Source: Lachnospiraceae bacterium (GTDB lineage: Bacteria; Bacillota; Clostridia; Lachnospirales; Lachnospiraceae). Taken from it: DNA of 36,069 nt. A program made the translations under genes and the position numbers. The stretch lies in assembly GCA_022781395.1 (NCBI GenBank), contig JALETS010000021.1, positions 1 to 36,069 of the forward strand, given 5' to 3'. This document shows, one piece after another, positions 32,629-36,069 of the stretch (the first letter of the stretch is position 1; the number at the start of each line of letters is the position of its first letter). The notes beneath the pieces were generated by a model. The model saw nothing but the letters and a program-made list of their open reading frames with translations, was not told where the DNA came from and made no database searches.

Positions 32629-33114
32629 ATGGGCAATATGATAAAGGTCGGGATGGCCGATTTAAACGTGTGCGTCAGTCCTGATAGTATTACAACATTG
32701 GGACTGGGGTCCTGTGTCGGGATTGCGCTTCGTGACCCGGTTACGAAGATTGGCGGATTGGCACATGTTATGCTTCCGGATAGTACAACAATCCGTAATA
32801 ATACAAATATTCCTAAATTTGCGGATACCGGAATAGAAGAACTGGTGAGGCAGGTAGTAGCCAAGGGTGCTAACAGGGGGCGTCTGGTTGCAAAAATTGC
32901 AGGGGGTGCGCAGATGTTTGCATTCCAAAGTAAAAATGAGATGGTTCGTGTAGGTGAACGGAATGTGGAGGCGACCAAGAAGAAGCTTGCGCAGCTTAAG
33001 ATTCCGATTCTGGCAGAAGATACAGGTAAGAATTATGGTAGAACCGTTATATTTTATCCGGAAACGGGAGATTTTGTAATTCGTGCGGTCGGTAAGCAGG
33101 AGTATTCAATCTAA
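32629..33114 (+). CDS. cheD: Chemoreceptor glutamine deamidase CheD
   Basis: CheD deamidates chemoreceptor glutamines and stimulates CheC. The 161-aa protein has the catalytic residues in the expected spacing: T23 and C29 (TLGLGSCVGIALRD) and H46 (GGLAHVMLP). These sit two residues later than the Thermotoga numbering I recall (T21, C27, H44). CAGGAGA lies upstream of ATG 32629. Length is normal. Confidence 0.95.
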   Translation: MGNMIKVGMADLNVCVSPDSITTLGLGSCVGIALRDPVTKIGGLAHVMLPDSTTIRNNTNIPKFADTGIEELVRQVVAKGANRGRLVAKIAGGAQMFAFQSKNEMVRVGERNVEATKKKLAQLKIPILAEDTGKNYGRTVIFYPETGDFVIRAVGKQEYSI

Positions 33115-33147
33115 CCGAAGTAAGAGTGAGGCTGGAAGGAAAGTAAA

Positions 33148-33588
33148 TTGGCTATTGAAGAAACAAATATCAAGGAAGAAAATACTGCAAATATGTCTGA
33201 CAATGAGAATGAGGTAAGTGAGAACGAAAATCAGACAGAGCCTGAGACGGCTGCGCAGCGAGAGGCAAGAGAAAAGAAAGAAGCAAAGGAGAGGGAAGCA
33301 AAAGCAAGAAAACGCAGATTGATCCCTCCTTTTGTTATGCTGACAGCCGGTGCAGTTACCAGTATTACGATGCGGCTGCTGCACTATGAAATGAAGACGA
33401 TGTTGATTGTCTTATTATGTGTACTGTTAGGTTTTTATATGGCCGGCTGCGTTTTAAAGTATATGCTCGACCGGTTTGAGCACCAGATCGAAGAAGCGGC
33501 TATGGAAGAGGGAGAAGTTATAGAGAAGGAACTCCGGGAAGAAGAAACAGCGCAAGGTGCAGTTGTGAGTGAAAAGGGTGAAATGTAA
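33148..33588 (+). CDS. Unrecognised two-helix membrane protein between cheD and sigD
   Basis: A 146-aa protein I do not recognise. The TTG start at 33148 lies 7 nt after GGAAGGA; the next in-frame ATG (33193) has no ribosome site. Residues 1-58 are acidic (Asn/Glu rich) and then strongly basic (EAREKKEAKEREAKARKRR). Two hydrophobic helices follow, at about 59-76 and 84-105, joined by a short loop. A Glu-rich tail (110-146) ends the protein. The basic stretch before helix 1 predicts both ends in the cytoplasm. It is not SwrB, which has a single N-terminal helix and follows sigD in B. subtilis. Tight spacing (5 nt before sigD) implies cotranscription with the motility genes. Confidence 0.8.
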   Translation: MAIEETNIKEENTANMSDNENEVSENENQTEPETAAQREAREKKEAKEREAKARKRRLIPPFVMLTAGAVTSITMRLLHYEMKTMLIVLLCVLLGFYMAGCVLKYMLDRFEHQIEEAAMEEGEVIEKELREEETAQGAVVSEKGEM

Positions 33589-33593
33589 TACAT

Positions 33594-34379
33594 ATGGATG
33601 AAGCAGGCAGAAAGAGACTTTGGGATGAATATTCAAGGACAAAGTCTCCTGAGATCAGGGAAAATATTATATTGGAGTATGCTCCGCTAGTCAAAGTAGT
33701 TGCCGGTCGACTCAGTATGTATCTGGGATACAATGTAGAGTATGAAGATCTGGTGAGCTATGGAATTTTCGGGCTGATTGATGCAATTGACAAATTTGAC
33801 TGTCTTAAGGATGTAAAGTTTGAAACTTATGCCAGTCTTCGTATAAGGGGTGCTATTCTGGACCAGATTCGAAAGATGGATTGGATTCCGCGTACCATCA
33901 GACAGAAACAGAAGCGGATTGATGCGGCTATCAGGGAGATTGAGGCACAATCCGGTCGAAGCGCTACTGATGAGGAGATTGCAGAAAGTCTTGGCATTTC
34001 GAATGATGAATATCTGGAATGGCAGTCTCAGATGAAAATTACGAATGTTGTGTCTCTCAATGAGTTCTTAGAGCAGGGTAGTGAAGTGCCAAATGAGGCA
34101 AACCGCAGCAAGAGTTCCCAGTTTGACAGCCCGGAAGAGGTGCTAGAGAAGGATGAACTGAAGAAGATTCTTGCGCAAGCGCTGGAACTTCTGACAGAGA
34201 AAGAACGGAAGGTTATTTTATTATATTATTATGAGGAATTGACGTTAAAGGAAATCAGTAACATCTTGGAGGTGTCCGAGTCCAGGATTTCCCAACTTCA
34301 TACAAGAGCACTTCAAAAAATGAAAGGAAAGCTGGGAAATTATATTGGGATTCTGACAGAGGCAGATAGTAGAAAATAG
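33594..34379 (+). CDS. sigD: Motility sigma factor SigD/FliA (sigma-28)
   Basis: Alternative sigma factor that directs RNA polymerase to late flagellar and chemotaxis genes and is normally held by the anti-sigma factor FlgM. The 261-aa protein has region 2 (YEDLVSYGIFGLIDAIDKFD, FETYASLRIRGAILDQIRKM and DWIPRTIRQKQKRI), region 3 (about 100-150) and region 4 with a helix-turn-helix (LTLKEISNILEVSESRISQL). It is near the 3' end of the operon, as in B. subtilis. No flgM is visible in the window. Confidence 0.97.
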   Translation: MDEAGRKRLWDEYSRTKSPEIRENIILEYAPLVKVVAGRLSMYLGYNVEYEDLVSYGIFGLIDAIDKFDCLKDVKFETYASLRIRGAILDQIRKMDWIPRTIRQKQKRIDAAIREIEAQSGRSATDEEIAESLGISNDEYLEWQSQMKITNVVSLNEFLEQGSEVPNEANRSKSSQFDSPEEVLEKDELKKILAQALELLTEKERKVILLYYYEELTLKEISNILEVSESRISQLHTRALQKMKGKLGNYIGILTEADSRK

Positions 34380-34387
34380 GGGTACAT

Positions 34388-35977
34388 ATGAACGGTTATT
34401 TCAGACTGGTAAATGAGAAGGGAAAGTCAAGCATTAAGCTGATACCGCCGACAGAGAACGGTAAGGTAGTTGATTTGAATGATGTGATAGAGTATCTGAC
34501 AATGAAGGATTATGCCTGTGATCTGCCCCCGTTGAAGAAAGCGGTAGAGACGGCAGCAACGCAGGAAACAACCATGGTGCTCAATCATGAAACCAGGTTT
34601 GTGGAAAGAGAATGTTATAAACTGACCGTGACACCGGATAAAATGAAGGCTTATGCGAGATTTTATGCAGCCTCCGAGGGCGGGGAAGAGCTGACGGCAG
34701 AGGAGGTTATACATGACTTGGAGTTGAAAGGCATCCGAAATGGTCTAATGCGTGATGAGATTGAGGCTTTCTTTGCGCATCGCGAGTACTGTGAGGATGT
34801 ACTGGTGGCAAAAGGAACTGCACCGGTGCAGGGAAAGGATGCTTATATAGAGTATAAATTTAATACGGACAGGAAGGCAAAACCTACACTATTGGAAGAC
34901 GGAAGTGTGGACTTCTTTAATCTGAATATTCTGAATCTTTGTGCTGAGGGTCAGGAGCTTGCAGTTCTACATCCTGAAGAACCCGGTGTGCCGGGAGAAA
35001 ATCTGTATGGAGAACCAATCAGAACTAATGATGTCAGGAAGGCTGTCCTGAAATATGGCAGAAATATTGAAGTTTCGGAAGACGGTAATGTACTTACCTC
35101 TATGGTAAACGGTCATGTGGAGCTTGTGGAGGGCAAGGTCTTTGTTTCAGATGTATTGGCGATAGAAAATGTTGATAACGCTACCGGTAATATAGAATAT
35201 GAAGGAAATGTCCAGATCAATGGTAATGTAAGAACGAACTTCAGCGTCAGGGCCAAAGGGGATATTGTGGTCAAAGGCGTGGTAGAAGCTGCAACGTTGT
35301 ATGCAGGCGGTAATATTATTATTGCCAGGGGCATGAATGGTATGGGCAAGGGTACTTTGTATGCAGAGGGAAATATTGTTGCAAAGTTCCTTGAGAATGT
35401 CACGGCAGAAGCGAAAGGGTATGTAACTTCCGAGTCTATTCTGCACTGCAAGGTTATGGCAGGTGGAGAAATCAATGTAGACGGTAAGCGTGGGTTTATC
35501 ACCGGTGGGAAGGTATGTGCAACAGGCTGCATCAATGTTAAGATGCTGGGTTCTGAGATGGGTGCTGATACGATTGTGGAAGTCGGCGTTGATCCCGGGA
35601 TCAAAGAACATATTGCTGAACTTCAGAAAAAGATCAATGAAGATATGAAGACGCTTCAGTCTATCCAACCGATACTGGTATCTACCAAGCAGAAATTGGC
35701 GCAGGGTGTGAAGCTTACGCCGGAGCAGATGAAATATATACAGTCTCTGGCTCTTGCCAATAAACAGAAGACAGAGGAAATAGAGTCCGCTACAGCAGAA
35801 GTGAAAGAACTGCAGCAGGGAATCAATGATGCTTCAGATACTGTCATCAGGGTCAAAGGAACAGTGTATCCCGGAACGAAGATCTGTATGGGTGATGTAT
35901 CCATGATCGTCCAGAAGAGTGCACAGTACTGCCGCTTTGTAAAGGAGCGGGGCGATGTGAAAATAGCACCGTTTTAG
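34388..35977 (+). CDS. FapA/DUF342 domain protein
   Basis: A 529-aa cytoplasmic protein of the DUF342 (FapA, flagellar assembly protein A) family. The N-terminal domain covers about 1-170. The central part has the repeated beta-helix pattern typical of the family: NIEYEGNVQINGNVRTNFSV, KGDIVVKGVVEAATLYAGGN and GEINVDGKRGFITGGKVCA. A coiled coil (about 400-485) and a short final beta segment follow. AGGGGT lies before the ATG, 8 nt after sigD. Members occur near flagellar and other polar assembly genes; the mechanism is not settled, though polar localisation roles have been reported. Confidence 0.85.
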   Translation: MNGYFRLVNEKGKSSIKLIPPTENGKVVDLNDVIEYLTMKDYACDLPPLKKAVETAATQETTMVLNHETRFVERECYKLTVTPDKMKAYARFYAASEGGEELTAEEVIHDLELKGIRNGLMRDEIEAFFAHREYCEDVLVAKGTAPVQGKDAYIEYKFNTDRKAKPTLLEDGSVDFFNLNILNLCAEGQELAVLHPEEPGVPGENLYGEPIRTNDVRKAVLKYGRNIEVSEDGNVLTSMVNGHVELVEGKVFVSDVLAIENVDNATGNIEYEGNVQINGNVRTNFSVRAKGDIVVKGVVEAATLYAGGNIIIARGMNGMGKGTLYAEGNIVAKFLENVTAEAKGYVTSESILHCKVMAGGEINVDGKRGFITGGKVCATGCINVKMLGSEMGADTIVEVGVDPGIKEHIAELQKKINEDMKTLQSIQPILVSTKQKLAQGVKLTPEQMKYIQSLALANKQKTEEIESATAEVKELQQGINDASDTVIRVKGTVYPGTKICMGDVSMIVQKSAQYCRFVKERGDVKIAPF

Positions 35978-36034: not shown

Positions 36035-36069
36035 ATGGCGATAGGATTTGTGGAGATGCAGGGGCAGAT
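36035..36069 (+). CDS. Start of a further gene, cut by the window edge
   Basis: ATG 36035 follows GAGAAGAAGG and opens a frame starting MAIGFVEMQG that runs off the window. The spacing (57 nt after fapA) suggests it belongs to the same unit. Too little is visible to name a family. Confidence 0.6.
   Translation, partial: MAIGFVEMQGQ

Follow-up and report, generated by a model that had tools for sequence, protein, structure and literature searches.

A small membrane protein, here called X, encoded between cheD and sigD in a Lachnospiraceae flagellar cluster, probably belongs to the swimming apparatus and has so far been overlooked. Gene context and co-occurrence both point this way: most of the flagellated gut Clostridia that we examined carry the gene at one fixed place in the flagellar cluster, and their relatives without flagella lack it. 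We read X, with a probability of roughly 55%, as a membrane-hairpin protein that is accessory to the canonical clostridial flagellum and whose tail recruits or holds a soluble flagellar protein. The gene, its family and position, its co-occurrence with flagella, the purifying selection and the conserved tail motifs are established; the role in motility is one that we infer from gene context, as we do the topology, the scaffold role, the site of action and the partner.

A small gene between cheD and sigD

The window, that is, the whole stretch of DNA analysed, is a complete contig of 36 kb. Its plus strand carries the order flhA-flhF-flhG-pilZ-cheB-cheA-cheW-cheC-cheD-X-sigD-fapA, some of these names being assigned by order and homology. 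The features relevant to X are as follows.

32629..33114, plus strand: cheD, immediate upstream neighbour of X (Pfam CheD, 5.9e-39)
33134..33140, plus strand: ribosome-binding site of X, GGAAGGA, with 7 nt spacing to the TTG; a similar site is found in congeners
33148..33588, plus strand: gene X, encoding a 146-aa flagellar-locus membrane protein with two transmembrane (TM) helices, TTG start (sequence, conservation, dN/dS)
33148..33315, plus strand: charged N-terminal arm of X, residues 1-56, special to the genus and close relatives, probably cytoplasmic (alignments)
33319..33381, plus strand: transmembrane helix 1, RLIPPFVMLTAGAVTSI..., with conserved P60 and a small-residue AGA..S pattern (alignments, AlphaFold)
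33394..33459, plus strand: transmembrane helix 2 with F96-Y-x-x-G100, the F and G being at least 90% conserved family-wide (alignments, AlphaFold)
33508..33531, plus strand: C-tail motif EGEVIEKE, in which G122, E123, V124 and K127 do not vary among 52 relatives; it may serve for docking in this lineage
33594..34379, plus strand: sigD/fliA, immediate downstream neighbour of X (FliA_WhiG TIGR02479, 1.7e-80)
34388..35977, plus strand: fapA (Pfam FapA, 1e-66)

X begins 33 nt after the end of cheD (33114) and stops 5 nt before the ATG of sigD (33594). A preliminary description of this DNA had proposed a two-helix membrane protein at this place, with a TTG start, a good ribosome site and a tight fit against sigD, and the sequence agrees. 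A matching frame lies between cheD and sigD in 30 loci (the window and 29 congeners), nearly all of them with a GTG or TTG start after a GGAAGGA-like site, and X was detected in 36/36 congeners searched. Comparison with relatives gives dN of ~0.15-0.26 and dS above 1, hence a dN/dS of ~0.1-0.15, the mark of purifying selection; the membrane core is the slowest-evolving part of X, and both cheD and sigD evolve more slowly than X. Given this dN/dS and its presence in every congener searched, X is not a chance reading frame.

A break of the transcript within the cheD-X-sigD stretch was considered and rejected: a pattern scan detected no forward terminator there, and promoter-like matches were near the shuffled expectation. 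In nearly every one of the loci examined from the window's genus (L001-L030), X probably starts at GTG or TTG and not ATG, perhaps so that its translation stays low. Downstream of fapA, Lachnospiraceae encode a conserved protein of ~105 aa beginning MAIGFVEMQGQ (window 36035-36069, where it is cut; L031:6938-7264; L041:6715-7032), which matches no Pfam family above cut-off and is another unnamed gene of the operon.

Within the protein, hydrophobic helices at about residues 58-78 and 83-104 precede a Glu-rich tail. An AlphaFold model of low confidence (pLDDT 61, pTM 0.30) places helices at 60-77 and 82-142, which form a hairpin with a long helix 2 extending into the tail; a Foldseek search of the PDB with this low-confidence model returned no match. 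The helical hairpin and the Glu-rich tail of the first account are thus both present. Because basic residues precede helix 1, the loop is short and the tail acidic, the two short helices are predicted to make a hairpin through the membrane, N- and C-terminus both being cytoplasmic.

An unnamed family across the Clostridia

X belongs to a wide family that has no name and no entry in Pfam, NCBIfam or the PDB. Searches of these three resources with the X protein and with a 66-member profile returned no family covering X, whether housekeeping or other, in line with the initial impression that no known family is recognisable; scattered sub-threshold matches to unrelated membrane or low-complexity families were set aside as chance. 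The word 'orphan', however, has to be withdrawn. A narrow profile trained solely within the genus (A1) retrieved X from 99/299 Lachnospiraceae genomes (98 genera). For flagellates that A1 missed, we fetched the loci by position: wherever cheD lay upstream of sigD (24/24), the gap held an ORF with two TM helices and an acidic tail. A broad profile (A2), partly trained on loci from this same Lachnospiraceae sample, raised the count to 127/299 genomes, leaving 172 X-negative.

When 391 genomes of the class were searched out of sample, 36 of the 37 non-Lachnospiraceae loci inspected, spread over ten families, proved to be cheD-X-sigD, the remaining locus being a false match; we counted as false L257 and the weak class-level matches (E above about 1e-5, long ORFs). 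With a third profile, run on 330 genomes of the phylum, two genera (two genomes) of one further class showed the cheD-X-sigD arrangement too and nothing else was convincing, but the profile misses the window's own genome and is therefore not sensitive to every branch. The Lachnospiraceae profile and that of the other members align by hhalign with an E-value of 7.7e-18. In the window, in congeners, in other families and in the further class, X lies on the same strand between cheD and sigD. No published study of X was found in searchable papers, and the family appears unnamed and unstudied in that literature.

The two hydrophobic helices are present throughout the family. Lachnospiraceae members typically consist of an N-terminal flank (median 7 residues), two TM helices separated by a loop of ~9 residues, and a tail (median 46 residues) of net charge ~-10. 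The long charged N-terminal arm noticed at first is thus real in X but peculiar to the genus and its close relatives. The proline at the start of TM1 and the F-x-x-x-G of TM2 (P60, F96 and G100 in the window) are among the most conserved positions in alignments A2, A3 and A4. A tail phenylalanine is as invariant as these in a selected non-Lachnospiraceae alignment from which a few divergent members were left out. A strict C-terminal motif, [DE]F.PL.[VIL], occurs in 13/22 non-Lachnospiraceae genera, against 0.04 expected in shuffled tails, a comparison uncorrected for the kinship of the genera. This motif is typical only outside Lachnospiraceae and is absent from the window's X, where EGEVIEKE is conserved instead. 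EGEVIEKE marks the window's genus and its neighbours; the tail is variable, and most Lachnospiraceae members have neither motif.

X follows the flagellum rather than CheC or CheD

X is almost confined to flagellated genomes. FlhA accompanies it in 98/99 X-positive Lachnospiraceae genomes by A1 (Fisher p 3e-36) and in 126/127 by A2, against 30/172 X-negative genomes (p 1e-53; 299 genomes in all), figures that count genomes and not independent events, since a gene within a flagellar operon is inherited along with the operon. The A1 figure is the cleaner, because A2 includes sequences from the same sample. Homologues residing mostly in non-motile genomes, the outcome that the preliminary description named as refuting its proposal, are not what we see. 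The sole X-positive genome lacking FlhA (G295) retains an intact cheAWCD-X-sigD-fapA stretch, and its missing FlhA is probably an assembly gap.

The 30 FlhA-positive genomes without X (A2) are of several kinds. In 13 of them whose loci were read, gene order differs and sigD is not preceded by cheD; four examined closely carry flgF/flgG-type genes after sigD. In G102 the contig stops within cheA, and some X-negative cases are assembly gaps. G115 (L267) is a genuine exception and the only clear case of a canonical-type flagellum that does without X: it reads flhA-flhF-flhG-cheC-cheD-sigD, has cheA elsewhere and lacks X genome-wide. X is therefore dispensable in at least one lineage. A second type of Lachnospiraceae flagellar locus, in which sigD is followed by flgF/flgG-type genes and X is missing, is represented by L133, L149, L150 and L162; in three of these four, sigD is only ~35% identical.

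Natural deletions separate the modules of the cluster. Two genomes without FlhA, G128 (L265) and G180 (L266), keep cheA, cheW, cheC and cheD and have no X; their che loci have lost X, sigD and fapA along with the flagellar genes. The next gene after cheD in G180 encodes a 183-aa protein with a single hydrophobic segment, at its N-terminus; then come the gene of another membrane protein and rpsB. In the opposite sense, X is retained in L170 and L186 (genomes G157 and G168), where no cheC separates cheW from cheD, and L282 (G1047, from another class) reads pilZ-cheC-cheD-X-sigD with no cheB, cheA or cheW alongside. From the FlhA-less cheAWCD genomes without X and the cheC-less loci with it, it follows that X tracks the flagellum more than CheC or CheD, though it is not indispensable to the flagellum. 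That Lachnospiraceae genomes without FlhA can retain a chemotaxis operon, in G128 together with PilZ, is an observation in its own right.

These deletions bear on a possible role of X in chemotaxis itself, such as anchoring CheD or CheC in the membrane or serving as their substrate. CheD is present in 127/127 X-positive genomes, X stands directly 3' of cheD on the same strand in 126/126 same-contig cases (A2), and flagellates without CheA or CheD (G075, G209, G222) also lack X, although these three are confounded, since they may carry the other type of flagellar locus, which was read in G209 and G222. However, 31 CheD-positive genomes have no X, as have the two cheAWCD genomes without FlhA, and X survives the loss of cheC. 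A strict link to CheC/CheD is ruled out, and we regard a chemotaxis function as quite improbable; of the earlier proposal of a flagellar or chemotaxis component, the flagellar half is supported by the genomic context and the other is disfavoured.

In a third idea, X would be the membrane partner of a flagellar brake, acting with the PilZNR/YcgR-type c-di-GMP protein of the same operon. pilZ lies upstream in 24/24 unbiased X loci, and among the six genomes in which PilZNR was sought genome-wide, it was absent from 4/4 X-negative flagellates tested (G115, G343, G098, G209). Yet G128 has PilZNR and no X, and two X loci of another family (L273, L275) keep X with no pilZ between flhG and cheB. A strict link to PilZ, good within Lachnospiraceae, is weakened by the latter loci, and we find the brake partner very doubtful.

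X and sigD are always adjacent and are jointly missing in flagella-less genomes, which makes a membrane-bound regulator of SigD the best rival: the acidic tail would bind or release SigD, a membrane checkpoint added to control by FlgM. In the loci with X that were examined, which come from two classes, X immediately precedes sigD, the gap being often short (5 nt in the window, median 32 nt), and X, sigD and fapA are lost together from the che loci of the flagella-less L265 and L266. On the other hand, adjacency to cheD is equally strict, L267 retains sigD without X, and X ends in a short, variable, mostly acidic tail; searches of Pfam and NCBIfam recognise neither an anti-sigma nor an FlgM domain in the protein. 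Moreover, related genomes are reported to have FlgM, in an flgM locus described in PMC3720852. A SigD regulator is on balance unlikely, and the CheD-anchor and PilZ-partner readings are weaker than it.

Possible function and known systems

As an accessory protein of the flagellum, X may be made together with the late flagellar genes and assemble at the basal body or close to it, within the membrane. Helix 2 would continue into a charged cytoplasmic tail bearing a docking motif that differs between lineages (EGEVIEKE in that of the window, [DE]F.PL.[VIL] in most other Clostridia), and through this tail X might recruit or hold a soluble flagellar protein, in the manner of a membrane scaffold. 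We propose more tentatively, at somewhat under even odds, that X is a core accessory component: a hairpin of the basal body whose tail motif, varying by lineage, would bind a factor of the C-ring, of export or of positioning. Flagella would then be poorly assembled, or run poorly, in its absence.

Lists of flagellar parts derive mostly from Salmonella and Bacillus. X is widespread in flagellated Clostridia, including motile gut Lachnospiraceae, yet has neither a name nor a family model; should it prove needed, the clostridial flagellum could have a component of its own. The conserved tail motif would offer a direct handle on the partner.

X may have been glimpsed before. A figure of Roseburia and Eubacterium motility loci in PMC3720852 marks hypothetical genes with a grey '?', with no family or function given in its text; these belong to the same locus and bacterial family as X and may include it.

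Among characterised proteins, SwrB (YlxL) of Bacillus subtilis is the natural comparison, since its gene too neighbours sigD towards the end of the fla/che operon and encodes a small membrane protein with a charged cytoplasmic part. SwrB is needed for assembling the hook and for activating export. On these grounds X could be imagined to do in Clostridia what SwrB does and to activate the flagellar export gate; the early suggestion was that X is perhaps placed like SwrB, though with a different topology. SwrB presumably belongs to DUF6115. PF19610 (DUF6115) matches neither X nor its family members in Pfam, and it matches a separate downstream protein at 1.1e-35. This DUF6115 protein has a single TM helix, at its N-terminus, and is encoded 3' of fapA in the loci with X that were checked (L041, L128 and L145), at SwrB's end of the operon; because it coexists with X, X is not SwrB. 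SwrB also follows sigD and is a single-pass membrane protein (PMC4526659), whereas X precedes sigD and has a hairpin of two TM helices. Membership of X in SwrB/DUF6115 is rejected, and we consider even a functional counterpart highly improbable.

FliQ-type export-gate proteins, encoded in the same operon, are likewise two-helix hairpin membrane proteins, of ~90 aa. X resembles them in its hairpin but shows no sequence match to them; it has in addition a long, charged tail in the cytoplasm, and not all flagella have it.
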